A stretch of DNA of 31,148 nt, taken from a virus. Positions within the stretch are counted from its first letter, which is position 1. Each line of letters starts with the position of its first letter. Positions 3,514 through 30,014 of this stretch are shown here, piece by piece. Both the position numbers and the translations under genes were made by a program. The stretch is taken from positions 1-31,148 of IMG/VR virus record IMGVR_UViG_3300009183_000252. One strand, given 5' to 3'. The notes beneath the pieces are model-generated. The model had not been told where the DNA came from. It did no database searches and saw only the letters and a list, made by a program, of their open reading frames with translations.

Positions 3514-5039
3514 TAGCCATCAACCTCAACATAGGCTAATTCTATGTCGCGGTAGATAACTCCGTTTTGGAAAGATTCAGCCGCCCATGTTCTACCAACC
3601 ACGCGAATAAACTTTTGGTTAAGTTGTGGGTCTTGAACTAATAAAGTTCCTTGGTGCTCAATAATTGGATAGAAGTCGTCCCACTCAGTTTCAGATAAAG
3701 TTTTAATTTGATAGATACCATCTTCACCTTGAATAGGGCCATCAACTACAATAGGGCGACTTTCTCCCAATGGGCGAAATACTGTATTTGGTTCTTCAAC
3801 ATTAGTATCTAATTGTGCTAAGACCCTTACGCTACCGATATTTATAGAGGGCTTACTGATAGCCTTAAACCACCAAGTTTCATCGCTCACTACATACACT
3901 TGAACTACAGCACTATAAGCGGAAGGAATTTCAACTCCCCCTGAAGTAGTCGCTATAGACCTAGTTCGGTAATAAGCGCTTGCGTCTCTTGGGGCTTCAT
4001 AATCAATTACTGAAGCAATAAAACTTCCGCTAGGAGTTAGTTCATCTCCATCTCTTACTAGGGTATAAGTTGTTCCTGAATCGTCTGACCTATAAATTTC
4101 AAATACTTGGCTCGCGAATCCTCCTGATACGGCTACACCTGTTGCAGTCAAAGTCGTGTAGTTATCGTCGTTACTATAAACAGCAGATAAAGAAGGACCT
4201 GTTGGCAAAGTGTTATTTATTACAAATCCGCTGTAAGCCCAATCTGAATAAAAAGGCGAGTTATTAACTGTCTTTCCAACTTTCATATACGCCCTATATG
4301 TAGCGTTAGCAAGTAAAGCGCCAACTACGTCATTAGTATCGGCAGAACCAATTACGCCTGAATCATAAGTCGAAGTAGATGTTTCAGGGTCAAATCCACC
4401 CGCACCATACTGGGCAGCAGTAAAAACTTTTATCTGGTAGTAACTCTGGGTATCTCCATCTGTATCTGTAAAAGTCCATGAAACATCAGGGCTAGCAGTG
4501 TTTGTAATAGTTCCGTTAGGGGTAGTAACTGATACTGTCGGTTCGCTAACAATATCTACATCTACATAAAGTTCGTAAAGGTTTGATATATCTGTTGAGT
4601 CTTGATACTCAGTAACTTTAACCCTAAGATTATTTATATCAGTTTGAGTCCATGCTAATCCATTAGGGGCAGCGACTTGGTATGCTCCAGTTAAGGTAGT
4701 AATACTTGAGTAAGTTCCACGAAGTTGTAACGGAGAATGGTAGTAGTTTTCATTATCAATACGAGAACCTAAATAAACGTTTAACTTGCCTGTTGCAGAG
4801 GCTCCAGTTTTAATTCTTGCTCTGACTCGTACTCTTTTAACTTTTTGACTTGCCGTTAAGGTAGTTGTGCCAAAGTCATAAAGAATAGAAGCGATGCCTG
4901 AAACTGATGTCTTTTTAGAAATGTAAGTAGTATCGCTTGCGTCATTTACGGCAGCATGAAAAGAAGCAGCGCCTCCTGTATTATCAAAATTACCTGAACC
5001 TGTTACTGTGGCGTTAGCCAATACTGTTGTAACTGCCAT
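3513..5039 (-). CDS. minor tail protein with fibronectin-III-like repeats
   Basis: The 508-residue product begins with a beta-rich domain that includes RVRARIKTGASATGKLNVYL. It then has at least two FN3-like units: one opens SVTTPNGTITNTASPDVSWT and carries QSYYQIKVF, and a second contains ASQVFEIYRSDDSGTTYTLV and YYRTRS. A C-terminal domain (from about WWFKAISKP) resembles the end of distal-tail or minor tail proteins. FN3 repeats are common in tail-tip proteins that touch carbohydrate. It lies directly after the tape measure gene, where distal tail proteins sit, and joins both neighbours by one-base TAATG overlaps. Confidence 0.75.
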   Translation of the reverse strand: MAVTTVLANATVTGSGNFDNTGGAASFHAAVNDASDTTYISKKTSVSGIASILYDFGTTTLTASQKVKRVRVRARIKTGASATGKLNVYLGSRIDNENYYHSPLQLRGTYSSITTLTGAYQVAAPNGLAWTQTDINNLRVKVTEYQDSTDISNLYELYVDVDIVSEPTVSVTTPNGTITNTASPDVSWTFTDTDGDTQSYYQIKVFTAAQYGAGGFDPETSTSTYDSGVIGSADTNDVVGALLANATYRAYMKVGKTVNNSPFYSDWAYSGFVINNTLPTGPSLSAVYSNDDNYTTLTATGVAVSGGFASQVFEIYRSDDSGTTYTLVRDGDELTPSGSFIASVIDYEAPRDASAYYRTRSIATTSGGVEIPSAYSAVVQVYVVSDETWWFKAISKPSINIGSVRVLAQLDTNVEEPNTVFRPLGESRPIVVDGPIQGEDGIYQIKTLSETEWDDFYPIIEHQGTLLVQDPQLNQKFIRVVGRTWAAESFQNGVIYRDIELAYVEVDG

Positions 5040-8000
5040 TACTTTCCTCTTCTTTGAGCAAGGGCTTTAGCAACTGCACTCGCAACTGTATTAGAAGTAA
5101 CTGTCGGCGTAACTTTTTGAGTATTGATATTTACACTCACATTAGGGTTACCAGCGCCATAAGTAAAGTTAGACTTACTAGAACTAGGTGTAGGGATACC
5201 TGAGTAGCCACCACTTGTAGTAGTTTTTTTAACAGGCGGAACGACTTTCGTACTGCCACTACTGCCACCGCCCACAGCGCCACTTATGCCTCCAATAGAA
5301 GCGAAAGCAGCAGCAATAACAGCAACCATTTGTTCGGCAATACTCTGAGCAGTCCCTACTAAACTTGCTCTTTGGGCTTCTAAAGCGTTCATCATGTTTA
5401 AGGCTAAATCTGTTCCTAAATTAGTTCCCTCATTTCTTAATGGGGCGAGCATTGAAACGATAGAGTCTTTAATGAAAGTCATTTGTAGATTTATGTTTTC
5501 AACTTCCGCTTGCGCGCCTGCTACGAAGGCTTGAGCCATACTTACTGCGTTGCCATAAAAGACAGTCGCCATGTCTGTTCCAAAGGTCGTTGAGGCTGAG
5601 TTAATTTGGTCGTATAAAGAGTTAATTGAACTTATTTGTTCTTGACTTGCTGTAGTTAAAGTCTGAGCAGTTAAGGAAGCAGTTTCAGGACCAGCCTCTA
5701 GTAATTGACGGACATACTCTTGGTTCAGTCCTGAGGCTAGAAGTTTCTTTATATTGCTAGAGAAAGAGGTAATCATTGCTAAGCGGTCTTGTAACTGCTT
5801 AGTAATTGATTCTAGCCCACCTGATGAGGCTTTAATTTGAGAGATAACATAACCAGTGGCGGTCTTGGCTACATTGTAAACGGCTGCGCTATCGGCTTTC
5901 GATAAATCAACCAAGGCAGTTGCGTACTTCTTTAAGTTACCTGTTACAGTTTTATTAAAGTCTGCTTGGTCGGTTAAAACGCTTTCTAAATTCTTTTGGG
6001 CTTCTTCTAATACTTTAACAGCCTTTTCTCTACGCTTTGCGAGCGCGATAAGTTGTTTAGTTTGTAACTCTAAGAAGTTAAGCATCTTTTGTCCAGAAGC
6101 AGGGTCAATACCAGCGTATCGTTTATTTATTGCCGCAGTTAATTGGTCATACATACCAATAATTGAACTAACATCAGCCTCAGCGCTTGAAAGGGCTTTA
6201 GTTAAAGCACTTGCTTCACCGAAAGGCATACGAAGGATATCGGCTAATTCAGCAGCGCCATCGGCTCTACTCTTTAGTACATCTTCGTAATTGCGCTGAG
6301 CGTCTTCTAGTTTTTTAGTTACTTCTTCTAACGCCTTAGCATTGGCTTCCGCTTGAGGTATAAACGCTCTAAGAGCCTCATTTAATTTATCGTAGCCTGC
6401 TTTCATCTTAGCCGCGGCTTTACCTGAAAGTTCTTTGCCCATAAAGTCAAATACTTTTTTAACTTGTTCTGTGCTTTGAAGGATAGTATCTCTAGCCTTC
6501 TCTGCTCCGCCTTCGAATCCTTTACGGAAATCATTATTTATGTAATCGTTATAGCCTTGCATAATATCGGCTAAAGAATCGTTAATGCCTTTCTTAATTT
6601 TAGCCTTTTTATCATTGCCGCCAAAAATCCTATCTGAAGACCCTAATAGTCCTAGGTCGGGCATTGTTACGCCATCTACGCTACCAGTAACTCCAATTTT
6701 AACGGGCTTATTTAATTTATCTAAATTGTCGCGATAACTTTCAACTTTTTTAGAGGCATTGTCGAAGAAGCCACCTACATTATTAGTGAAATCTTTTAAT
6801 TTATTGTAAGCATCTTTAGCCTCAGGACTAAAGAAACTCATAGCCTTTAGGAACAATTTAACAGGGCCAGTTATTAAGTTCGCTAACGCTTCTGCGTAAA
6901 TACCTGCAAACTTTATCATTCCGCTAAATACAGTTACTCCAACTTTTCCAATTGAAATCATAGCCTTGCGGAAAGTTTCTGACCTGTTCCATAACAACAT
7001 AAAGCCTGTTACTAACATGGCGGCTGCCGCTACTACTAACCCAATAGGGTTCATACGCATTACTAAATTTAAGCCTTTGAAGGCTTTAACTAAACCGCTT
7101 GTGGCCATAGTTTTAGCAGCCGTCAGGGCTAACATAACTTTTGATACAGCGTTGTATAGTTTTACTTGAAGTATGTAAGCAGCCATACCTATGGCGACTG
7201 TCGCTACGACTCCCGCTAGAACTTGAAATACTTTTATGTTACTTTGTATAAATCTACCGATTACTCCAAGGGCTTTGATTAAACCGATTACTGCTCCAAC
7301 TGCTAATTCGATGGCAGGAACTATTAGTCCTGTAAATATCGGAGCGAATACTGAAGCAACGGCTTTAGAAAAATCAAAAATGTCTTTGACTAAACCTTTT
7401 ATGAAACCTACGAATCTTTCAATAGCCGCCCCATCTTTGAACTTAGCCTGCAATGTTGCAAAGGCTGGAGTTAAAACTGAACTAAGGGCAACAGCCACTT
7501 GGCCTATTATTGGGATTAAAGCCTTACCGAAAGCCTTTTGAGTATCTGTAACACCTTTAGTTAAATCTCTTTGCGCCTTTTGGGCTGGAGTTAAAGCATT
7601 TTGTGCGAAATCTCTATAGGTCGTTCCTAAAACTTTTACGATAGCCGCGGCTCGTTCGTTTTCAGTGCCTGACTTAATCATATTTTTTGTCTCTTTATCT
7701 AGTACGAAGCCAGTTCTAGTCAAAGAAGCGAATTGACCGTTTAATGCTTGAGCAAGACCATTAGTCATTGCCCTAAATTCATCGGCAGAAGCGCTCGCGC
7801 CTTTTTCAGCAACTACATAGTCCAAAATAGCAGGGGTAAGCATTCCAATCGTACTTCCATGTAAATCGAAAGTAGCCAACTGCGATTGGATAACAGTTAT
7901 ATTTTCCGAAGAAATACTAGTTAACTTTTCAAGGGCGGCTGCTTGTTGATTTAATACTTGGACTTGTTCCGCAGTCGCGCCATTTGTGTTGTAGAGCAAA

Positions 8001-8251
8001 CGAGCAAGGCGATTTTGGGCCGCACCTGATTGTTGGGCGGCGCGAACTGAATCAACGCCTAATTTAATAGCGAAAGCACCAGCCGCTGTTGTTGCAGCAG
8101 CAAAGGCTAACTTAAATTTACCGCCTAAAAAAGAAGCAGTTGTATTAGAGGACTTAGTTAAATTCTCAGTAGCCTTTTGAGCCTGCGACATGGCAGTAGT
8201 AAATTGAGAAGTGTCGGCCTTAAGCCTAGCAAGTACATCAACGACTGCCAA
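5039..8251 (-). CDS. tape measure protein
   Basis: At 1070 residues this is the longest gene in the window. It lies directly after the gpG/gpGT genes, as tape measure genes do. The N-terminus (LARLKADTSQFTTAMSQAQK) is the usual start of such proteins. Long helical, Ala- and Lys-rich coiled-coil regions alternate with hydrophobic stretches (for example IGLVVAAAAMLVTGFMLLW) that may insert into the host membrane. The C-terminus is Gly/Ser/Thr-rich. The start is a TTG at 8251 preceded by AGAGGAAG; no better ATG is near. By the rough 0.15 nm per residue rule the tail would be about 160 nm. No lysozyme or peptidase motif is visible. Confidence 0.92.
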   Translation of the reverse strand: MAVVDVLARLKADTSQFTTAMSQAQKATENLTKSSNTTASFLGGKFKLAFAAATTAAGAFAIKLGVDSVRAAQQSGAAQNRLARLLYNTNGATAEQVQVLNQQAAALEKLTSISSENITVIQSQLATFDLHGSTIGMLTPAILDYVVAEKGASASADEFRAMTNGLAQALNGQFASLTRTGFVLDKETKNMIKSGTENERAAAIVKVLGTTYRDFAQNALTPAQKAQRDLTKGVTDTQKAFGKALIPIIGQVAVALSSVLTPAFATLQAKFKDGAAIERFVGFIKGLVKDIFDFSKAVASVFAPIFTGLIVPAIELAVGAVIGLIKALGVIGRFIQSNIKVFQVLAGVVATVAIGMAAYILQVKLYNAVSKVMLALTAAKTMATSGLVKAFKGLNLVMRMNPIGLVVAAAAMLVTGFMLLWNRSETFRKAMISIGKVGVTVFSGMIKFAGIYAEALANLITGPVKLFLKAMSFFSPEAKDAYNKLKDFTNNVGGFFDNASKKVESYRDNLDKLNKPVKIGVTGSVDGVTMPDLGLLGSSDRIFGGNDKKAKIKKGINDSLADIMQGYNDYINNDFRKGFEGGAEKARDTILQSTEQVKKVFDFMGKELSGKAAAKMKAGYDKLNEALRAFIPQAEANAKALEEVTKKLEDAQRNYEDVLKSRADGAAELADILRMPFGEASALTKALSSAEADVSSIIGMYDQLTAAINKRYAGIDPASGQKMLNFLELQTKQLIALAKRREKAVKVLEEAQKNLESVLTDQADFNKTVTGNLKKYATALVDLSKADSAAVYNVAKTATGYVISQIKASSGGLESITKQLQDRLAMITSFSSNIKKLLASGLNQEYVRQLLEAGPETASLTAQTLTTASQEQISSINSLYDQINSASTTFGTDMATVFYGNAVSMAQAFVAGAQAEVENINLQMTFIKDSIVSMLAPLRNEGTNLGTDLALNMMNALEAQRASLVGTAQSIAEQMVAVIAAAFASIGGISGAVGGGSSGSTKVVPPVKKTTTSGGYSGIPTPSSSKSNFTYGAGNPNVSVNINTQKVTPTVTSNTVASAVAKALAQRRGK

Positions 8252-9266: not shown

Positions 9267-9995
9267 TTATCTCCTTGAAAATGCGACGCTACGGGTTATA
9301 GCACCTGTGCCTGTTGCGATTGTGGTTCTTGTCCTCAAGTAACGATTTACTGTCGTTCCTGAAGCAACTTCAACTCTTTCTGAATCTTTTCCAGAAAGTG
9401 CTACCGTGCCGAATACAACTAAATCAGCCCATGTTGAGTTATCGGCTGAATGTTGTACTGCGATTACAGTAGTTGCTGTTCTAGCGTTTGTAGTTACGTG
9501 CATATGTGCTACCCCACCATTAGTAGATGAAGCCGCGTTATCAACACTTGTGGTGTTGGTAGTTGTAGATACGGCAGTTTGGCAAACTAACCAAACTCCT
9601 GAATCTAATCCCCCATCTGCTATCGCTTCCGCTGATACAGAAACAACATCAGTTAAAGGACTACTAATCTCGTATGAGGTTGAGGACGCTGCCGCAAGAA
9701 TTGCTCGTCCCCCTATGCTAGTGCTGTCGTTAGATACTGTTACTACTTTATCAGTAGCATTACCTAAAGCGGCGTGAAAAATGGAATCTGCGCTAGAAGT
9801 AGTTCCATCGAATAAACCTTCGAATGAAATAGTTCCCTCGTTATGACCGACAATATAAGAGCGGTCAGATGAGCCGAAAGTTGTAGTTTCTGCGGTATCA
9901 ACCGAATAAGCGGCAGTGGCGCTATTTAAGTAAGTAGTTAGGTCAAAATCATCACTTAATACTGTGGTGTTCTTACCATGGCGAAATGTAGGCAT
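9267..9995 (-). CDS. second tail-tube-like protein with extra C-terminal domain
   Basis: The first about 115 residues repeat the plan of the 8846-9262 protein: MPTFRHGK start, ETTTFGSSDRSYIVGH core, then GTISFEGLFDG. From about residue 125 onward there is an added beta-rich domain (LDSGVWLVCQTAVSTTTNTT, then TTVIAVQHSADNSTWADLV and NRYLRTRTTI) of the kind found on phage decoration or tail-surface proteins. It may be a longer tube subunit, a tail terminator-side ring, or a tube protein that displays an adhesin domain. The start ATG at 9995 overlaps the previous stop as TAATG. Confidence 0.75.
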   Translation of the reverse strand: MPTFRHGKNTTVLSDDFDLTTYLNSATAAYSVDTAETTTFGSSDRSYIVGHNEGTISFEGLFDGTTSSADSIFHAALGNATDKVVTVSNDSTSIGGRAILAAASSTSYEISSPLTDVVSVSAEAIADGGLDSGVWLVCQTAVSTTTNTTSVDNAASSTNGGVAHMHVTTNARTATTVIAVQHSADNSTWADLVVFGTVALSGKDSERVEVASGTTVNRYLRTRTTIATGTGAITRSVAFSRR

Positions 9996-14406: not shown

Positions 14407-15099
14407 TCAATTAAAGTCTTTTTTATTCCAGAACCTAGTGCGATAAGAATTAAAGATATTCACCTTCAATTCATGACCTATTTTCGCTGATTTTATTTCA
14501 TCTTCGCTATCGCCGAATTTCATTTGCCATTTTTCTCGCTTAAAAGGTATTACTTGAACAAGGGGAGTGCCAGCAGGTATGAGACCTTCGAACTCGTTTA
14601 CCTTAAATAAAAAAGGGAAATTTACAGGAGCGTAATAATTATCTGTATCCACTAAACCTGATAAAACTTCGAAGTAAGGGTTAGGATTATGAGCAGGAGG
14701 CATAAAGAAGCAAGAGTAGCCTTTTGGAGTTCTTATACTCCATGGATTTTCAAACTTATGCGCCCCACCTGCGCTCATGTTTGCAGGATAATGTGCTATC
14801 TGAGTTATAGGGTGGAAGCCGAACTTCATATTTCTATCTCCCGAATAGAATGTGCAATTACCGTCTTTAATCGTTACCCAAATGTCAGCCCAAGTAGGTA
14901 TTATGTATCCCGCCGTCATCATATCTAAAACGGGAACACATTTTTTTACTGTAGTACCGGGCCCTGACTCTGTAACGCCTTTTTTATCACCAATATAAGA
15001 CCTAGTATCTTTATACCATTTTGGAGTGAAGTTTTTAGCAGGAGCGGGAAAGTAGTCAGAAGTAACTCCCATAGTGTCGGTAAATAAAATATCTTTCAT
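14407..15099 (-). CDS. TPKGYS-family phage protein (DUF6065-related), copy beside the sulfotransferase
   Basis: The 230-residue product shows conserved blocks in order: PKWY at 26-29, TVKKCVPVLDMMTAGYIIP at 50-68, NPWSIRTPKGYS at 118-129, GLVDTDNYYAPVNFPF at 148-163 and IPAGTPLVQVIPFKRE at 174-189. Proteins with these blocks are frequent in cyanophages and other marine phages and have no established function; the last two blocks are also present in DUF6065. It shares its blocks with the 26310-27041 and 27083-27835 genes next to the halogenase. This copy follows the sulfotransferase. A beta-sandwich with a small-molecule or peptide pocket is a guess. Confidence 0.7.
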   Translation of the reverse strand: MKDILFTDTMGVTSDYFPAPAKNFTPKWYKDTRSYIGDKKGVTESGPGTTVKKCVPVLDMMTAGYIIPTWADIWVTIKDGNCTFYSGDRNMKFGFHPITQIAHYPANMSAGGAHKFENPWSIRTPKGYSCFFMPPAHNPNPYFEVLSGLVDTDNYYAPVNFPFLFKVNEFEGLIPAGTPLVQVIPFKREKWQMKFGDSEDEIKSAKIGHELKVNIFNSYRTRFWNKKDFN

Positions 15100-19849: not shown

Positions 19850-20827
19850 TTAAGCGACTACTGAATCCCAGAACCAACCTAGATCAGAAGCAATAACTTT
19901 ATTGTCAAAAGCCATTTCTCCTTCAATACGGTCTGCCTTGAGAGATTCCATACGGAATGAACTTACGCCAACTGTTGAACCGATACCGCCTGATACACCT
20001 GTCCATGAGAAAGAGTATCCAGCAGAAGGAGTCAACAAGCCTGGTGTTGGAGCAACATAAGCAAGAAGGGCTTTCTTTCCTGAGGTAAATGAATACGCAG
20101 CAGTTGCACCTTCGTTGTTTGTAGCCTTAACACCTTTAGAGATGATAACGCGAGGAATATCAAACATCGCGGCTAACATATCTGAAGTAACAGTCTGTGC
20201 AGATGTGTACTTGATACGGTCTACGATATCAGGGTGATTCTTTAGTGCACGGAATACATCGTATCCCAATACTAAAGTGTTTGGTTCCATACCAGTTGTT
20301 GAAAGAATACCTGCCTTAGCGTCTTCGATATCATCAATTGGATCTGAAGCAGCATAGTCTGACCATTGCTTTACTTCGTTTGTTGAAGGAGTTCCTGAAA
20401 CGCCATCGTAATCATTTGCCCATACGCCACCAGCAAAGAAGTCTGTGTTCCATTGGATTTCCTTACGAAGCATTAAACGACGAGTTACAAACTCTGTCGC
20501 TTCGCGAAGTGGGTTGATAGGTGCGTCTGAGTTAGCAAGAGTCTGGTCATCTACGTCCTTATGGAACGCAAATACATCTGCGCTATAAGAACCAGTTGAT
20601 AGACCGTAGCCTCCACCAGCAGATTCAGTTCCACCAGCGCGGCGTTGTGCCTCATCGCGGAACCAATCGTTCTTAGTGTAGGTAAAGAACTTGTCAGACT
20701 TCTTGTCCACAGGAATTACTGGGAACACCTTGTCTGCAATAAAGTTGTCTTGATTTTGTAGGTAGGCAATTGAGATGTTAGTCAGAATCGCGTCTACGTG
20801 TACTGAGTTGATATTTGGCTGTGGCAT
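19850..20827 (-). CDS. major capsid protein (HK97 fold)
   Basis: The 325-residue product begins MPQPNINSVHVDAILTNISI and follows AYLQNQDNFIADKVFPVIPV, TYTKNDWFRDEAQRRAGGTE and LSTGSYSADVFAFHKDVDD, the order seen in major capsid proteins of actinophages and related siphophages. The later part, LVLGYDVFRALKNHPDIVDR and ESLKADRIEGEMAFDNKVIA, gives the P- and A-domain elements. The gene follows scaffold and decoration genes, the classic head order. A Shine-Dalgarno GGAGCG precedes the ATG at 20827. Its N-terminal NSVHVD peptide recurs in the maturation protease. Confidence 0.93.
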   Translation of the reverse strand: MPQPNINSVHVDAILTNISIAYLQNQDNFIADKVFPVIPVDKKSDKFFTYTKNDWFRDEAQRRAGGTESAGGGYGLSTGSYSADVFAFHKDVDDQTLANSDAPINPLREATEFVTRRLMLRKEIQWNTDFFAGGVWANDYDGVSGTPSTNEVKQWSDYAASDPIDDIEDAKAGILSTTGMEPNTLVLGYDVFRALKNHPDIVDRIKYTSAQTVTSDMLAAMFDIPRVIISKGVKATNNEGATAAYSFTSGKKALLAYVAPTPGLLTPSAGYSFSWTGVSGGIGSTVGVSSFRMESLKADRIEGEMAFDNKVIASDLGWFWDSVVA

Positions 20828-21235: not shown

Positions 21236-22099
21236 TTACTTAGCACCCTTCTCGTTTAGGTATTGATTGTACAAGTCAGTGTTTTTAGCAACAGCGTTAG
21301 CAAACGCCTGTTCGAAAGTTACACCATCTGTTCCAGCAACAGCCTTAGCCATAGAAGTTAACTGCTCGTAAGCAGAACCGCTAGTAGGTGTTGATGACTT
21401 GCCGATTTCGGCAAATATATTTGCTGACTCCGCTTGAGCATTAACTGAGTTAAGTGCGTCTTCGAAAGACTTTGCTAACTCTTCGTTAATTTCTGCTAAC
21501 TGGCGAAGTGCTGGGCCAATTTTTTCAGCATCTAGACCTAGGAATTTCCAAGCCTTTGCTTTCTCAATTGACTCACTATCAGCGCGTGCAACTCTTTCTG
21601 CTTTTAGAACTTCTTCTGCACTATTAGCACGAGCGGTTGCTTCTGCTGCTGACTTCTCTAAATCTTCTAACATTTTACGAAGTGGCTCTGGAGCCGACTT
21701 CACTAATGAAGCGGTATCAATTACAACTTCATCGTCTTCTGACTTCTTAAGTTTTCCTTTAGCAGTTGCTAATTCGTCCTCAAGCATTTTGATTTTTTTC
21801 ATCATTTCGTCGTAAGACATTTTTTTCTTGTCTTCTTGCATCGCCTTATCTACTTCTTCAGTAGACACGACTTCAGAAGTTACTTCCACGTTATTATTTT
21901 CTGACATGGCTTCCTCCTCAGTCCCGTTCTGGAACTCGTTTGAGTTATTTGTATTATTACTTAGGTCTGAAAGAAGGTCGTCCACGCCAGTTAAATTCTC
22001 TGACTTGATGACTAACCAACCTTCATGAAGGTGAGCAGGGTGGTCAACGCCACTAGTTTCCTCGATATTGAGAGCAACCATTTTGCGGGCCTTGGCCAT
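21236..22099 (-). CDS. putative capsid scaffold protein
   Basis: The 287-residue product starts KARKMVALNIEETSGVDHPA, a motif seen at the start of actinophage scaffolds and at the end of XkdF-like proteases. It then has an acidic, Asn/Glu-rich disordered stretch, a Lys/Glu-rich coiled coil (MMKKIKMLEDELATAKGKLK) and a helical C-terminus (FEQAFANAVAKNTDLYNQYL), the classic scaffold layout. Scaffolds guide procapsid assembly and are then cleaved or released. Its place directly before decoration and capsid genes supports this. AAGGAG precedes the ATG at 22099. Confidence 0.78.
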   Translation of the reverse strand: MAKARKMVALNIEETSGVDHPAHLHEGWLVIKSENLTGVDDLLSDLSNNTNNSNEFQNGTEEEAMSENNNVEVTSEVVSTEEVDKAMQEDKKKMSYDEMMKKIKMLEDELATAKGKLKKSEDDEVVIDTASLVKSAPEPLRKMLEDLEKSAAEATARANSAEEVLKAERVARADSESIEKAKAWKFLGLDAEKIGPALRQLAEINEELAKSFEDALNSVNAQAESANIFAEIGKSSTPTSGSAYEQLTSMAKAVAGTDGVTFEQAFANAVAKNTDLYNQYLNEKGAK

Positions 22100-22778: not shown

Positions 22779-22948
22779 TACTCCTCTTCAGAATTCCTTA
22801 GCGGGAAAGTGGCAATCCATAATACGCTGGAAAGAATAATAGCATAACCTACTACAGTTTTCGCGGAACCGTCAAGGACGACCCAAGCAACAAACATACC
22901 TAGCAAAGTCCAAATTTGGTTAGCAATATCTGAGAACCATTTTTTCAT
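22778..22948 (-). CDS. small membrane protein with two helices (56 aa)
   Basis: The product starts MKKWFSDIANQIWTLLGMFV and has two hydrophobic helices (about 13-26 and 31-49, the second GYAIILSSVLWIATFPLR) with a short DGSAK turn and an acidic end, NSEEE. The two sides are joined by TAATG overlaps (stop 22780-22778, start 22948-22946), which supports real translation. Its ribosome site, AGAAGGAGG, sits in the last Arg codons of the preceding gene. Similar two-helix proteins are common in phages of marine bacteria. Function unknown. Confidence 0.65.
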   Translation of the reverse strand: MKKWFSDIANQIWTLLGMFVAWVVLDGSAKTVVGYAIILSSVLWIATFPLRNSEEE

Positions 22949-24432
22949 TACATCCTCCTTCTATAACTAGCGCTACCTGCTAAGGCTGCGGAAGCGGCAG
23001 ATTGGACTGCTATTCCACTTACGATAACTGCGGCAACGATTGTTTGTTCTGACTCGGCCCGTTCCTCATCAGACATATCTGCTCCGATACTGCTAATAGC
23101 CAATAAGGCTTGAGCAGGGTCGCTAAAAATAGTTGTAAGTAATTCTACTGGACTCTCTAATACAACTAAGGCTGCGGCAACTTCAGCAGTTACGATTACT
23201 TCATTTCCGTTAGCGTCTTGGCGTACTTCAACAGGCGTAGAAGGTGGAAGGTCGTCTAAAGTAATTCCCGCTTCAGCGATAGCCTCTACTGTTACTGCTT
23301 CACCTTCAGCCGACTCAATTAAGGCTTCAGCAACTAATTCTCTTTCAGACTCAGTGAAAGTTCCATCGGCGCTTAATGCTTCAGAGAGATTATTTACTTC
23401 ATCTTGAGTAATTTCTCCGTCTTGAGATAAGGTTTCTAGTATCTCTACTGCGTCCTCTGTTGTAACTTGCCCGTTTGAAACTAAGTCCTCAACTAAATTA
23501 TTCATTTCGGCTTGTGTAATAGGTTCTTGGCTTTCTACCATTTCGTTGGTAGGCTCGTCTTGTGGTCCTTCCAACTGACTTTCTTGCTCTAGTTCTTGTG
23601 TCGCTTGTTCTAGTGTTTCTTCTATCAAAGACTCGCCAACAGGAACAGATTCCCCATCAGTTAAAAGTTCTTCTATGGGTGGCTCAGGTATTAGTTCTTC
23701 TATCGTGGGCAATGGCTCTAGGTTTGTATCTATCACAATAATCTGAGGGGGAATATATGGATTTACTATCTCTGGTGTTATCACTGGTGGCTCTACTGGA
23801 ACAACAGGTGGCACTACTACTGGCTCTACTGGCGTAGGCGTTACTGGTTCAGGGGCAAGTTCTACAGGCGCAGTAACTTCAGTTATGCCGATTGCCTCTA
23901 ATGTTACGATACTTCCATCATTTAATCTAGCCCCAGTTCTTTCATCGCCATACAAAGGTCCTTCTACGTTATAGGTATATTCAACTTGGCCTGTAAGAGT
24001 TATTTGCGCAGTAATTACGATATTAGTAACGGCACCATTTAGAGTTCCGTAAGGGCGATAAGCCCCATCTACTTGAAAACCGCCATCGCTGACTCTAATT
24101 ATGAAATGGGTATCAGGCATACGGTTTGGCAAAGCCCACCAGTCCCTAGATTCAATAGATACAGAAGGAGTAGTGGGATAGGTCCAATAAGTTCCGTCAG
24201 GATTACCAAAAGTTATTACCGAGTTAGTCGTTGCGTAAACATTTGAATAAGTTACTTCATCAAAAATAACTGTAGTTGTTAAGGGTACTTGATAACTAAC
24301 ATCATCTCCGCCATTAGTAACAATAACAGTTACAGCAGGTTCAGGTGCAGGCTCTCCTTCAGCGTAGGCAGGAGTAATAAATAGCCACCCTGATAACAAG
24401 TAAGCAGCAAATAATAAACGCAGAGTTTTCAA
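22948..24432 (-). CDS. secreted, membrane-anchored protein with EF-hand-like repeats
   Basis: The 494-residue product has a signal peptide (residues 1-24, cleavage after PAYA), then a beta-rich domain (about 34-180: VPLTTTVIFDEVTYSNVYAT, ITFGNPDGTYWTYP, SRDWWALPNRMP), a Pro/Glu/Val linker (189-305) and three tandem units SNGQVTTED, QDGEITQDE and SADGTFTESE (about 319-363) that resemble half EF-hands. At the C-terminus is a hydrophobic helix (465-487) and a basic RRRM end. This layout predicts export and anchoring in the host membrane with the bulk outside. It starts with TTG at 24432 and likely has its own promoter. Possible roles are exclusion of other phages or a virion surface protein; I cannot tell. 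Confidence 0.78.
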   Translation of the reverse strand: MKTLRLLFAAYLLSGWLFITPAYAEGEPAPEPAVTVIVTNGGDDVSYQVPLTTTVIFDEVTYSNVYATTNSVITFGNPDGTYWTYPTTPSVSIESRDWWALPNRMPDTHFIIRVSDGGFQVDGAYRPYGTLNGAVTNIVITAQITLTGQVEYTYNVEGPLYGDERTGARLNDGSIVTLEAIGITEVTAPVELAPEPVTPTPVEPVVVPPVVPVEPPVITPEIVNPYIPPQIIVIDTNLEPLPTIEELIPEPPIEELLTDGESVPVGESLIEETLEQATQELEQESQLEGPQDEPTNEMVESQEPITQAEMNNLVEDLVSNGQVTTEDAVEILETLSQDGEITQDEVNNLSEALSADGTFTESERELVAEALIESAEGEAVTVEAIAEAGITLDDLPPSTPVEVRQDANGNEVIVTAEVAAALVVLESPVELLTTIFSDPAQALLAISSIGADMSDEERAESEQTIVAAVIVSGIAVQSAASAALAGSASYRRRM

Positions 24433-24488: not shown

Positions 24489-26021
24489 TTAAGCAATGGC
24501 GGTTAAAGCCGTTAAAAACTCCTTATGGTTCATAAACTTAGCAATCAAAGCATTATCTTTAGCAATTAAGTTTGCATACTCTTGCCTCTTACTTGGCGTT
24601 AGGTATGGTTCTCCTAAACGTAATAAAGTTTGCTTATCTATTAAGCCATTGCCAATTAAAATCCAATTAACCGCGATACTCTCAAATAAAGCGCTTTCAT
24701 AGAAGTCGAAATTCCTAGTCAAGACTTTCTCTTTGGCTACATCTAAAAGGTATTGGACTCTGTGAGATGCTTTATTCCTAGTAGAAAAGTCTTTCCAAAA
24801 TTCAGTATCTTTCCTCGCTGAGGCGTAGTGGAGATATAAGAAATCTACAGTTTCCAAAGTCTGGGCTAAAAAGACTGTATTCAACTTATCTCTTATTTGG
24901 TCGCTTCTAACTTCTAAATTGGCAACATTACTCATAAACTTTCTTAACATTACGATGGCCTGCATAATAGAAGTCGCTTCTAACGGTTCGATAAAACCTG
25001 TAGAAAGTCCTACACCGAAAGCATTCTTAATCCATATCTTTTCATAACACCCTGCTGTGAAATCAAACGCACCTTTATCTGCCCTAGGATAATGAGGCTC
25101 ATAGCCTAAGTAACTTTCTATCTCTTCCGCGGCTTCTTTTTCTGAAATATAATCGCTATCGAATACATACCCGCAACCATATCTATTCTGTAAAGGTATT
25201 TTCCAAATCCAGCCATACTTCATAGCGATAGCCTCTGTATAAGGCGGAACGTCTTCACCCATTTCTATAAAAAAAGGAAGTGCCTTTTTACAAGGTAACT
25301 TGTCAGTATGTGACTTCCAAGTACTCTTATAGAAATTGCCAATTATTAACCTTCTAAAACCTGTGCAGTCAAAAACGAAATCGCACGGCAAAAAAACCTT
25401 ATTAGTTTTTAGGGCTGTTATGTAGCCTTCTTCATCGCTAACAATTTCAGAGATGATTCCTTCTTCATGCTTTACTCCACGGCTTATGGCAACAGACTTT
25501 AAGTATGCCGCTAATAAGCGAGCGTCGAAGTGTAAAGAGAAACTACTATGGGGTTCTATCAGCATTGTTTCTGGGTTTTTAACAAAAGGAACTTTATTAC
25601 TTTCCCCTGACTTTTCGAGGAATGAATAATCCTTCAAGTCGTCATCAAAAGTAGGGGCGACTAAATGAGCGTAGTTCGTTACTTCTTCTTCATAAAGGCT
25701 TTTAAGGCTCCATGAATAATCATTAGTAACGCTATCTTTCACATAGAAGGGTTGATGATAAGACTTTCGCGAAGAACTCCAATTAGTAAATTTAATACTA
25801 GTTTTGATAGTCGCTTGGCAATTTGCAATAATTTCAGGAATAGATATTTCTAAAAACTCTAAAACTTCTACTAGGTGCGGTGTACCGCCTTCACCTGCTC
25901 CTAAAATGCCATACTCTTCACTTTCAATTAAAGTAATATCAGCGAAAGGAAAGGTGCGTTGAGCATATAAGGCTGTTAGCCACCCTGCTGTTCCCCCACC
26001 TGCAACGATTATTTTTTTCAA
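24489..26021 (-). CDS. flavin-dependent (tryptophan-type) halogenase
   Basis: From a TTG at 26021 the product is 510 residues, full length for the family. It has the FAD-binding GGGTAGW (8-14), GEGGTPH (43-49), a Lys73 in TIKTSIKFTNW that aligns with the catalytic Lys79 of PrnA and RebH, the halogenase signature WIWKIP (271-276), and GLSTGFIEPLEATSI (338-352), whose Glu345 matches the conserved catalytic Glu. All key residues are present, so it should be active with reduced flavin, O2 and halide, given a host flavin reductase. The start overlaps the stop of the membrane gene as TTGA. A longer form from 26087 adds 22 residues before the FAD motif and is less likely. Substrate unknown; VirX1 of a cyanophage is a precedent. 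Confidence 0.93.
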   Translation of the reverse strand: MKKIIVAGGGTAGWLTALYAQRTFPFADITLIESEEYGILGAGEGGTPHLVEVLEFLEISIPEIIANCQATIKTSIKFTNWSSSRKSYHQPFYVKDSVTNDYSWSLKSLYEEEVTNYAHLVAPTFDDDLKDYSFLEKSGESNKVPFVKNPETMLIEPHSSFSLHFDARLLAAYLKSVAISRGVKHEEGIISEIVSDEEGYITALKTNKVFLPCDFVFDCTGFRRLIIGNFYKSTWKSHTDKLPCKKALPFFIEMGEDVPPYTEAIAMKYGWIWKIPLQNRYGCGYVFDSDYISEKEAAEEIESYLGYEPHYPRADKGAFDFTAGCYEKIWIKNAFGVGLSTGFIEPLEATSIMQAIVMLRKFMSNVANLEVRSDQIRDKLNTVFLAQTLETVDFLYLHYASARKDTEFWKDFSTRNKASHRVQYLLDVAKEKVLTRNFDFYESALFESIAVNWILIGNGLIDKQTLLRLGEPYLTPSKRQEYANLIAKDNALIAKFMNHKEFLTALTAIA

Positions 26022-26320
26022 AGTAGTAGCCCAAAGTGTTTCAGTATAAATATCAACGCGAGCGCACTCCAAAGTATGTTGAACCAAATTAAAGTAGGAA
26101 TAGTTTTAACAGTCGAGGACCAAATTAAGCCGAGGCTACTAATTAAAGCAAAGATATAAAACCACCAGATACTTACATCAAAAAGCAAGCCCGGAATTAT
26201 TATTATGCCCTTAGCAAGAAAGGCAAAAAACTCTACTGTATTAGCCCGCGTCCAGTATTTTTTATGCCGCATAGTTCCAAGCGCTACCACCCAAGCCATG
26301 TGATTTCTTTTAGAGTTCAT
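26018..26320 (-). CDS. small three-helix membrane protein beside the halogenase
   Basis: The 100-residue product has a basic N-terminus (MNSKRNHMAW, RHKKYWTR) and three hydrophobic segments, about 31-47, 50-67 and 73-93 (LIWFNILWSALALIFILKH). It is coupled to the halogenase by a four-base TTGA overlap and to the upstream gene by 11 bases. Position suggests it works with the halogenase, perhaps anchoring it, moving substrate or product, or transporting halide. I do not recognise the family. Confidence 0.7.
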   Translation of the reverse strand: MNSKRNHMAWVVALGTMRHKKYWTRANTVEFFAFLAKGIIIIPGLLFDVSIWWFYIFALISSLGLIWSSTVKTIPTLIWFNILWSALALIFILKHFGLLL

Positions 26321-27041
26321 CTGATATTGCCTGTAGCCCTCCGCCTGATTTTGAGTTAATTCTAGTCTGTGATGCTTCTATATTATACGCATCTCTTTTT
26401 TTCATAAATCGATATACAAAGTTAGTCTTCTTTTTCTTAAAAGTCATGTAATGTACTAAAGGTTCCCCTTTTTTGATATTTACTTCTTCGCCATCGCCAA
26501 AATAAAATAATTGCTGGCTTAAAGCGTGAGAAAGCCAAGAGTCCCACATACCTGCGGCTATTTGCCAATCGCGGTCCGCGTGGTAGAAAAGAGGTAGTTG
26601 TAGAGTTGAGTACCCTTTAGGAGTTTTTAAGAACCAAGGGCAATTCAGTTTGAAAATTAGTTGGGCTTTATCGCCTCTATGTTTGTAATCCATATAGTCT
26701 AACATTTGGTCTTGAGGGTGCGCTTTAATAGTGTAATACTCTCCAATGCCAGCCTGAGCCCACCATTGGTTGCTTTCTTTATCGTACTTAAAAGACATAT
26801 CGCACCAAGCGGGAAGTATTACCCCTGTAGTAAACCAATCAACAAAACTAGGACAAGTTTTAATCGTTCTTCTTCTTTGGCTCTTTAATCCAAAATTACC
26901 TAAGGGTGAAAATCGCGGAACCTTCTTCCAAGCGTCAGGAATGAATTTCATTGCAGGTTGCGGTTGGCATAAAGGGTCTTCTGCTAAGCCCGGAACATTA
27001 GTAAGGAAAGTCATTAGCGGTTCTTTTTTGCGATTGAACAT
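26310..27041 (-). CDS. TPKGYS-family protein beside the halogenase
   Basis: The 243-residue product shares blocks with the 14407-15099 protein: IPDAW at 34-38 (versus PKWY), TIKTCPSFVDWFTTGVILP at 59-77, NCPWFLKTPKGYS at 133-145, and IKKGEPLVHYMTFKKK at 189-204. The aromatic-rich middle (YSTLQLPLFYHADRDWQ) and a basic C-terminus follow. It begins at ATG 27041, with a possible second start at ATG 27014 (MTFLTN). Such proteins are common in marine phages and unexplained. It overlaps the membrane gene, so it is in one transcript with the halogenase. Confidence 0.72.
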   Translation of the reverse strand: MFNRKKEPLMTFLTNVPGLAEDPLCQPQPAMKFIPDAWKKVPRFSPLGNFGLKSQRRRTIKTCPSFVDWFTTGVILPAWCDMSFKYDKESNQWWAQAGIGEYYTIKAHPQDQMLDYMDYKHRGDKAQLIFKLNCPWFLKTPKGYSTLQLPLFYHADRDWQIAAGMWDSWLSHALSQQLFYFGDGEEVNIKKGEPLVHYMTFKKKKTNFVYRFMKKRDAYNIEASQTRINSKSGGGLQAISDEL

Positions 27042-27082: not shown

Positions 27083-27835
27083 TTAAGGTTTTTGATGGTC
27101 TAAAAATTCGTTGCCATAAACATCTTGGCCTTTGAAGTACAGCCTTCCTATATTGTTTGTAAGGCTATCTTCTACCTCTCGCCTATGAGTTACTGTATCT
27201 ACTAGAGTTTGAAGACTTTCTTGCATTGTTTCTTCGTCAAAAACTTCCTCTGCTAATTTCAATGAAAATGAATCAGCGTAATATCTTGGAATTGGAATGA
27301 AACCAGCAAGCGGAGTTCCCGCAGGTATAAATACTTTAAGATTAGGCATTTGAATTTTTAAGTTGAATGTAAAGGGGTTATTTAAGTTATCTGTCTCTAC
27401 CACTCCAGTCATAACAGTTATATTTGGAATAACATAGTTAGGTGGGTTTATCGTCATTAAATTAACGCCCTTAGGAGTTTTTAGCGTGATAGGTGGACTT
27501 ATAGTTATGATTCCTGAACCGAAATGACTCTCTATCATAAATAGTTTTCTATCGAGAGTTTCTCTTTCTTCATAAAAATCAAAAGTTACAGCGCCTATAT
27601 CACTCCCGCCGTCCCAAGTAAAAGAAAAGTCGAACTCATTCGTAACGATAAATCCATATTGGTTGCCTATAGTTAAAGGCAAGCATCTATAAAAGTGCGG
27701 CGTAAACCAATCTCTAGTTTTCTTTGGCCTTTGTATTAAATTAAGTACTCTTTTTTCTACTGAACTAGAGTTATCAACTAGTGGGCTTATTACCACCGCG
27801 ATAGTTTTATCAGGGACTTCTTTACCTTTTGGCAT
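27083..27835 (-). CDS. DUF6065-like protein
   Basis: The 250-residue product has the DUF6065 order of blocks: FYRCLPLTIGNQYGF at 48-62, FTWDGGSDIGAV at 72-83, ESHFGSGI at 102-109, LKTPKGVNLMTINPP at 118-132, TGVVETDNL at 143-151 and IPAGTPLAGFIPIPR at 170-184, ending near GRLYFKGQDVYGNEF. DUF6065 is known from bacteria and phages without a confirmed function. The TPKG and IPAGTP blocks are shared with the two TPKGYS-family genes in this window, so all three are probably distant paralogues. It heads the halogenase gene group. Confidence 0.75.
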   Translation of the reverse strand: MPKGKEVPDKTIAVVISPLVDNSSSVEKRVLNLIQRPKKTRDWFTPHFYRCLPLTIGNQYGFIVTNEFDFSFTWDGGSDIGAVTFDFYEERETLDRKLFMIESHFGSGIITISPPITLKTPKGVNLMTINPPNYVIPNITVMTGVVETDNLNNPFTFNLKIQMPNLKVFIPAGTPLAGFIPIPRYYADSFSLKLAEEVFDEETMQESLQTLVDTVTHRREVEDSLTNNIGRLYFKGQDVYGNEFLDHQKP

Positions 27836-28567: not shown

Positions 28568-28693
28568 CTATTCCGCCTTTTTTTCTTTAGGAATTTGTAT
28601 AACAAGATTGGACTCAGATACAGCAACAGAGCAAGCGCACTCGCTCGAACAGCAGGACGATTGCGGTAAGAATCTAAAATCTTTCTCATCCAT
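28568..28693 (-). CDS. short Cys-rich protein (41 aa)
   Basis: The product, MDEKDFRFLPQSSCCSSECA then CSVAVSESNLVIQIP, has four Cys in eight residues (positions 14, 15, 19, 21), suited to metal or disulfide binding. The ATG at 28693 overlaps the protease gene's end (8-base overlap), with GAAGAA ahead of it. The short length makes the call moderate; I recognise no family. Confidence 0.55.
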   Translation of the reverse strand: MDEKDFRFLPQSSCCSSECACSVAVSESNLVIQIPKEKKAE

Positions 28694-30014
28694 TTTTCTT
28701 CTTTCGTTTTGATGGTTTCATTATAGTATCAACATGAACGCTATTAACGTCAGGGGAAGATAACTCCACTTTGACTTCTTCAGGCTCAGGTAAGTCCGCA
28801 CTTATTCTCTTTGCTTTGCCACCGATTGAATAGCCTCTTAACTTTCCTGCCTTTACTAAGTCCCAAGCCCAATCATTCCATTGAACTACCATGAAAACTG
28901 TATTAGGTGGATATGTAACTTGGCTTGTCGTACCATTGGCTTTCATCATAGGAACGCTTAACTCATAAGGGAAAGTCATTACTTCTAACCACTCACCCGC
29001 AACTACATCTTTGTTATGTTGTAAGCGGATTCTTCTATCGCCTGACTTTACATACTCCCATACTGCAACCTGTAATTCATCAGCATCGGTCCATTCAGAG
29101 TGAGCGTCTTCTGTATTAGGAATATAAAGGGGTCCTAAGGTAAATTTTCTTTCATCGGCTTTCATAAAAGGTTCTTCATAGCGTAAAGACTTTTCTACAC
29201 CGTCAATAATTCCACTTACCCAACTCTTTGCAGGGTCTCCGCCCCAAGCGTCCCAAGCAACTCTACCGCCACTAGGAAAGCCATCTTCCCCTTGACTAAA
29301 ACCTTTTCCTGCTTTATCACTTTCATGGCGGGCTAAGAAAGAATTCATGCGGCGAATAGTCCTTAAACTTACTGGGCGTCTTGCGGCTAATTGAGCAGCG
29401 CGAGCGCGACCAACGCTAGTAAAGCCTCCACCAGCATGTCCTTCTCTAATCCATTCCAATGCTCTTTTAGCAGCGCGAGCAACTGAAGCAGGTGGAGTAT
29501 AAGTATCTGTATCTGAGGCCTTTTCTAATTCATCTTCAATAGGTTCAACTAAAGTAGTTACGCCATCTCCAGTTAATCCAAAGGCAACTTTATAGTAATC
29601 GTACTCGCCTTCTTCCCATTGGTCCACGTATTTTTCAACCAGCATCTCTTCACCATTAAATAGTTCTTCTAGTTCGATTCCGTCAAATACTAATTCAGTA
29701 TCTAGAATAACTGGCGTATTAAACGCTGCGTCCTTACTGAAATCTAAACCGCGCTTAGTCAATTCGGCTGTTATGTAGTGATGTGTGACTAGCGCGGCTG
29801 AATTAAGTTCCTCTTGATTTAACTTCTCATAAAGGCTTAATAGTTTTTCTGCCGTGGCTTTTTGAACCGCGTCAGGAACATTGGCATACAAGGCTCTTAC
29901 ATGGGCTGCTGCTTCACCTTTAGTTTGGTGGCAAGCAACCATTTCTCCTGTATTAGGTTTAATCACGGCATAGGCAGAACAACCTTCGACATCTGTAGCG
30001 ACTTTGTATGGCAT
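28686..30014 (-). CDS. capsid maturation protease, XkdF-like
   Basis: The C-terminal domain (about 283-404) is XkdF-like (PF14550): FTLGPLYIPNTEDAHSEWTD, then IRLQHNKD with His333, then GKLRGYSIGGKAKR with Ser396 as likely catalytic residues. The middle (174-265) has VARAAKRALEW, LAARRPVSLRTIRRMNSFLA and GGRVAWDAWGGDPAKSW, a DNA-binding-like domain common in phage head proteins. The N-terminal part (DVEGCSAYAVIKP) is a further small domain. It should cleave scaffold and capsid N-termini during maturation. The end carries NSVHVDTIM, nearly the same as the MCP N-terminus. ATG at 30014. Confidence 0.85.
   Translation of the reverse strand: MPYKVATDVEGCSAYAVIKPNTGEMVACHQTKGEAAAHVRALYANVPDAVQKATAEKLLSLYEKLNQEELNSAALVTHHYITAELTKRGLDFSKDAAFNTPVILDTELVFDGIELEELFNGEEMLVEKYVDQWEEGEYDYYKVAFGLTGDGVTTLVEPIEDELEKASDTDTYTPPASVARAAKRALEWIREGHAGGGFTSVGRARAAQLAARRPVSLRTIRRMNSFLARHESDKAGKGFSQGEDGFPSGGRVAWDAWGGDPAKSWVSGIIDGVEKSLRYEEPFMKADERKFTLGPLYIPNTEDAHSEWTDADELQVAVWEYVKSGDRRIRLQHNKDVVAGEWLEVMTFPYELSVPMMKANGTTSQVTYPPNTVFMVVQWNDWAWDLVKAGKLRGYSIGGKAKRISADLPEPEEVKVELSSPDVNSVHVDTIMKPSKRKKKNG

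Follow-up and report, generated by a model that had tools for sequence, protein, structure and literature searches.

A phage-only membrane protein gained and lost with a flavin-dependent halogenase: a probable accessory halogenation module of actinophages

The first viral halogenase to be characterised was VirX1 of cyanophage Syn10 (PDB 6qgm; PMC8407142), and halogenases are present in 20 of 153 cyanophage sequences (PMC10452541). Such enzymes, with substrates in vitro, have been described, but the purpose they serve in phages has been open since VirX1. Because such enzymes are already known from VirX1 and the cyanophages, the halogenase analyzed here is, taken alone, another member. It is encoded on a 31,148-base IMG/VR virus fragment, referred to as the window. 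The features of the window that bear on the analysis are the following:

24489..26021, minus strand: halogenase (PF04820), 510 residues; assigned by Pfam, PHROG and solved-structure sequence matches
26018..26320, minus strand: halogenase-linked membrane protein, 100 residues; assigned by helix prediction and co-occurrence with the halogenase
26310..27041, minus strand: DUF6065/phrog_7084 protein, predicted to adopt a dUTPase-like fold; assigned by PHROG and fold search
27083..27835, minus strand: second DUF6065 protein, paralogue of the 26310..27041 gene; PF19541, 7e-35
14407..15099, minus strand: third DUF6065-family copy, remote from the halogenase module
28686-30014: XkdF-type maturation protease
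22948-24432: 494-residue protein with no family match, adjoining the halogenase on the major-capsid side
21236-22099: protein that may be a scaffold; its sole match is a PHROG of unknown function
19850-20827: major head protein
9267-9995: major tail protein
5039-8251: tape measure

The protease, head, tail and tape measure genes of the window phage form a siphovirus-like structural operon. A sequence-only reading of this DNA had placed the halogenase between the maturation protease and the scaffold. The protease side of that description stands; on the capsid side, the neighbor is the 494-residue protein and not the scaffold. This neighbor begins with a signal-peptide-like segment and contains an extended Pro/Glu-rich region, and its L002 version is 80% identical. 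The head-region location itself, put forward as an unusual feature, is not significant: relatives of the halogenase belong to various modules, among them replication, head and tail, and modification of the virion, suggested by the placement, was rejected on the same ground. Elsewhere in the window, the product of 853-1431 matches a phage-encoded HslV-type peptidase family (phrog_1040).

The halogenase gene starts with TTG and encodes 510 residues with no internal stop; an alternative upstream TTG at 26087 would extend the protein by 22 residues. The product matches the Pfam family Trp_halogenase (PF04820) over residues 3-464 (E 9e-100; 335 bits, cut-off 21), PHROG 2928 'tryptophan halogenase' (2e-103) and 30 solved halogenase sequences, the top one being the Trp 5-halogenase 8fov (1.7e-63). 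Its catalytic residues were compared in an alignment of 118 phage and bacterial halogenases. The FAD loop, GGGTAG, occupies residues 8-13, and Gly8, Gly10 and Gly13 are invariant, as are the catalytic Lys73 (equivalent to PrnA Lys79) and Trp271. The WxWxIP motif is represented by WIWKIP at 271-276 (GWIWKIP at 270-276), with Trp273 present in 111 and Pro276 in 114 of the 118 sequences. An intact tryptophan-type halogenase carrying the FAD loop, Lys73 and WIWKIP, as described from the letters alone, is thus what we find, but the catalytic glutamate had been misplaced at residue 345. Glu345 is the first, invariant glutamate of GFIEPLEATSI, and the offset of the PrnA alignment identifies the second, Glu348, as the equivalent of PrnA Glu346; a glutamate occupies this position in 114 of the 118 enzymes. 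PrnA Ser347 corresponds to Ala349, an alanine also found in the HTVC008M and P-SSM2 enzymes. The C-terminal substrate-binding region, where free-tryptophan halogenases of the PrnA/RebH/PyrH type have their Trp-binding residues, shows little conservation and many gaps in the alignments.

The alanine in place of Ser347, together with the histidine that replaces the catalytic glutamate (EPLHATS) in three membrane-gene-linked halogenases (among them L100 6291-7742), would fit an inactive or re-purposed flavoenzyme, either an oxygenase or a producer of hypohalite without a defined substrate. We regard this as very improbable for the window protein, which retains Lys73, both tryptophans and Glu348 and whose relatives are under strong purifying selection. 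Nor does the tree place it among inactive homologues; the catalytic residues persist throughout a wide range of phage and bacterial enzymes. Full-length homologues with up to 65% identity, the conservation of catalytic residues and dN/dS values of 0.06-0.11 between related phage halogenase pairs, indicative of strong purifying selection, argue against a chance match. Judged by these comparisons, phage halogenases are maintained enzymes, and the window protein is apparently an active, flavin-dependent, phage-borne halogenase. No flavin reductase was identified beside its gene, so that FADH2 would need to come from the host.

The overlapping membrane gene mentioned in the sequence-only reading was confirmed at 26018..26320. 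It shares four bases (TTGA) with the halogenase gene, where its stop codon overlaps the halogenase TTG start, and 11 bases with the DUF6065 gene at 26310-27041, so that three genes overlap in series; the membrane and halogenase genes are probably translationally coupled. The protein has predicted helices at residues 25-47, 52-68 and 75-95 and invariant Trp, Tyr, Lys and Asn positions; the invariant or near-invariant aromatic residues are W10, Y22, W23, W52, W53, Y55, W67, W79 and W84. It has no match in Pfam, PHROG or NCBIfam. Scanning with an alignment of this protein recovered the family in at least 529 IMG/VR stretches; it was absent from the 50,697 GenBank phages and 72,556 plasmids searched, was confirmed, with the patterns applied, in none of 84,980 prokaryotic species genomes, and was not found in 80 bacterial halogenase loci. 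On the last two counts, a bacterial origin of the gene pair was rejected.

The association of the two genes was analyzed in metagenomic contigs, sampled by their similarity to the window. A first, halogenase-based scan located 17 further loci in which the membrane gene flanks a halogenase on one side or the other. When two scans were pooled, the membrane gene lay within 150 bp of a halogenase in 71 of 109 distinct members and within about 3 kb in eight more. The halogenase comes first in 42 of the 71 adjacent pairs and the membrane gene in 23; five pairs are on opposite strands and one is fused. Among the 30 contigs without an adjacent halogenase, 11 carry one elsewhere, including nine of the ten contigs longer than 30 kb.

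To control for background, lineage relatives were chosen by marker genes unrelated to the pair. In the lineage defined by a primase marker, represented by 40 contigs at least 23 kb long, nine contigs carry both genes, three the membrane gene only, three the halogenase only and 25 neither (Fisher 1.3e-4, a p-value that ignores relatedness); the three contigs with only the membrane gene are all 34 kb or less and may be fragments. A second lineage, defined by a different marker gene, comprises 29 contigs, of which 16 carry both genes and 13 neither, with no exceptions (Fisher 1.5e-8, again ignoring relatedness). Independent of these p-values are the empty sites: in L492 and L493 a DUF2061 gene is followed directly by a nuclease gene, and in L495, L496 and L010 the halogenase and membrane genes are inserted between the two; the empty-site junction is clean up to the start codon. 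Across the contigs compared, the membrane gene is a phage-only partner whose gains and losses coincide with those of the halogenase.

These data also bear on the possibility that the halogenase is a stand-alone, VirX1-like auxiliary enzyme and the membrane gene a passenger of the same cassette, for example one serving superinfection exclusion. Small exclusion membrane proteins are indeed common in phages, and cyanophages and other phages frequently have a halogenase but no membrane gene. A mere passenger would, however, hardly be expected to show perfect joint presence and absence in the second lineage, to recur beside distant branches of the halogenase tree in both orders, or to co-occur with the enzyme even where the genes lie kilobases apart, and we consider this explanation improbable.

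Other genes accompany the pair in some loci only. The pair-less phages L492 and L493 have a 2OG-Fe(II) oxygenase-like family gene just behind the nuclease gene (6108-6677 and 6042-6611, respectively). An AhpD-like, peroxidase-related protein adjoins the membrane protein or lies a few genes away in L083 (6303-6842), L098 (5460-5993), L101 (7940-8461) and L110 (2339-2875), in some cases with no halogenase beside it. Neither family was accepted as a fixed part of the module.

The 118-row tree shows how often the partnership has changed. The paired state requires 13 changes, at least 12 of them on well-supported branches, and paired halogenases are interleaved with bacterial and cyanophage enzymes. 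The window halogenase groups with those of L002, L256, L074 and L118. The mean identity is 67% for the membrane proteins and 35% for the halogenases, the distance matrices of the two proteins are weakly correlated (r 0.37), and membrane proteins that are 89% identical pair with halogenases just 24% identical in opposite gene order. Because near-identical copies are combined with such different enzymes, in either order, the membrane protein is probably not a scaffold tailored to one enzyme; it would rather serve something common to the halogenase reactions.

This pattern weighs on the idea that the membrane protein is a recruiter, anchoring the soluble halogenase at the inner membrane near a membrane-bound substrate (a quinone, a carotenoid or retinal, or a lipid-linked intermediate) or a membrane flavin reductase. 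Such a role would be in keeping with the overlap of the genes, in either order, and with a contig, L101 (the same contig as L268), in which 4840-6285 encodes halogenase and membrane protein as a single-frame fusion beside a second full-length halogenase. The exchange of divergent enzymes between near-identical membrane proteins is ill-suited to a tailored interface, and so is the weak correlation of the distances. The fusion was down-weighted as proof of interaction, as it occurs in one contig only and lacks about 60 internal residues of the halogenase. A recruiter is accordingly unlikely, although we rate it above the passenger.

An alternative in which the membrane protein is itself the substrate, with its conserved Trp and Tyr residues being halogenated, draws on the number of those residues, on the adjacency of the genes and on the higher conservation of the membrane protein (67% versus 35% for the enzymes). 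Most of the aromatic residues, however, lie inside the predicted membrane helices, where a soluble enzyme could hardly reach them, the genes are 7-8 kb or more apart in one lineage, and there is no leader/core architecture like that of ribosomal peptides. We therefore attach very little weight to it.

The fold of the membrane protein was approached with an AlphaFold2 model based on 84 sequences, which consists of three long helices (mean pLDDT 78.5). For this model the best Foldseek hit had an E value of 2.9 and none was significant; weak hits with E values over 4 repeatedly included SemiSWEET and the mitochondrial pyruvate carrier. In VIA, Z was at most 7.7; the pyruvate carrier reached 7.6 and SemiSWEET 6.2, and the unrelated ExbB scored equally high. 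Profile comparison by hhalign against five SemiSWEETs gave a probability of 0.3%, and the membrane protein has PG where SemiSWEETs have the PQ motif. A SemiSWEET/PQ-loop identity, prompted by the architecture and the weak structural hits, was not borne out by profile comparison or, statistically, by fold, and is retained as a lead; the membrane protein may be a carrier.

The third overlapping gene belongs to a family for which a literature search found no description. Foldseek with the DUF6065 protein of 26310-27041 gave a probability of 1.00 and an E value of 1.7e-3, all of the top 50 hits being dUTPases or dCTP deaminases, and VIA gave a Z of 10.7 over 115 residues, with 222 chains at Z 8 or more. 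The protein is accordingly predicted to have a dUTPase-like barrel fold. Profile comparison with dUTPases is weak; the DUF6065 consensus contains a motif-III-like GIVDTD and lacks the glycine-rich motif V (RGxGGFGSTG tail), so that the set of dUTPase active-site motifs is incomplete. The window phage has three diverged copies, and DUF6065/phrog_7084 proteins also occur in haloarchaeal tailed viruses, where no neighboring halogenase was noted. Of 118 distinct phage halogenases, 38 have a DUF6065 gene no more than 3 kb away, versus 0 of 98 bacterial ones. DUF6065 also stands behind two tandem halogenases in two cyanophage operons, that of VirX1 (Syn10) and that of P-TIM40: L370 2932-6809 (Syn10) contains overlapping genes for VirX1, a second halogenase and a DUF6065-like protein, and L410 1187-5121 (P-TIM40) has the same order. 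Its presence in both the window and the VirX1 operon suggests that the two systems are related in function.

The hosts can be narrowed down by WhiB, which is taken as a marker of actinophages, a group with cultured freshwater representatives (PMC10202952). WhiB is encoded in 24 of 26 membrane-gene-positive contigs versus 3 of the 13 halogenase phages that lack the membrane gene, and the module would therefore be mainly actinophage, with hosts mostly among the Actinobacteria. A motif scan did not find WhiB in the window fragment. The relatives of the window phage's capsid (nearest are Arthrobacter phages, 57%) and of its tail (Rhodococcus phages match one tail protein) point the same way, to an actinobacterial host.

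Taken together, the comparisons make it probable that the two genes form an accessory halogenation module of actinophages; its least certain part is the handling of substrate or product by the membrane protein at the host membrane. By analogy with the enzyme family, host-supplied FADH2 and O2 would form a C4a-hydroperoxide, which a halide would convert to hypohalous acid; at the tunnel's far end, an aromatic substrate would then be halogenated under the direction of Lys73 and Glu348. The membrane protein would most likely bring the substrate to the host inner membrane or carry the halogenated product across it, a role suggested by the way the protein is conserved and by a loose likeness in structure. 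Host metabolites, a signal or a free aromatic compound, named in the sequence-only reading, are candidate targets. Candidate benefits are the poisoning of competitors, the silencing of a host signal or the alteration of a host envelope molecule. More tentatively, the soluble flavin-dependent halogenase and the phage-only protein with three transmembrane helices could constitute a membrane-coupled, two-component actinophage system that makes and delivers a halogenated compound, or installs it at the membrane, for host takeover or competition between phages, with the dUTPase-fold DUF6065 protein, common to the VirX1 operon, as an optional third part. The partner suggests that the chemistry is linked to the host membrane, it directs attention to a tractable group of hosts, and its gain and loss with the enzyme provides a genetic handle, either gene being deletable.

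Compared with known systems, the window halogenase has the common fold family, the FAD loop, the catalytic Lys and Glu and the WxWxIP motif of the bacterial Trp 5- and 6-halogenases (PyrH, Thal; PDB 8fov, 6nsd, 5lv9), which are its best solved-structure matches. It differs in being distant from them (218 bits at best) and in its C-terminal substrate-binding region, which is poorly conserved, and the 80 bacterial loci compared have no membrane partner. VirX1 is likewise a phage-borne flavin-dependent halogenase, with a second halogenase and a DUF6065-type protein in its operon. The phylogeny with VirX1 and bacterial halogenases, proposed along with the sequence-only reading, was run and puts VirX1 in a separate clade with 100% SH-aLRT; together with an identity of 30% over 423 residues, this rejects a close relationship. 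VirX1 moreover has EPLESNG for the EPLEATS of the window enzyme and lacks the membrane partner. The nearest relative in a GenBank phage, the halogenase of Pelagibacter phage HTVC008M (41.6%), is also encoded among structural genes, between the terminase subunits, but its neighbor is a 2OG-Fe(II) oxygenase, and the membrane partner is nowhere in that genome. Actinomycetia phage DSL-LC01 (PMC10611076) is a freshwater actinophage that likewise has WhiB and a halogenase; its enzyme, however, is 24% identical and the membrane partner was not found. Full-text literature searching turned up nothing pertinent that pairs a membrane protein with phage flavin-dependent halogenases. What sets the window apart from these systems, and is to our knowledge undescribed, is a phage-only membrane partner that is gained and lost jointly with the halogenase, mainly in actinophages.
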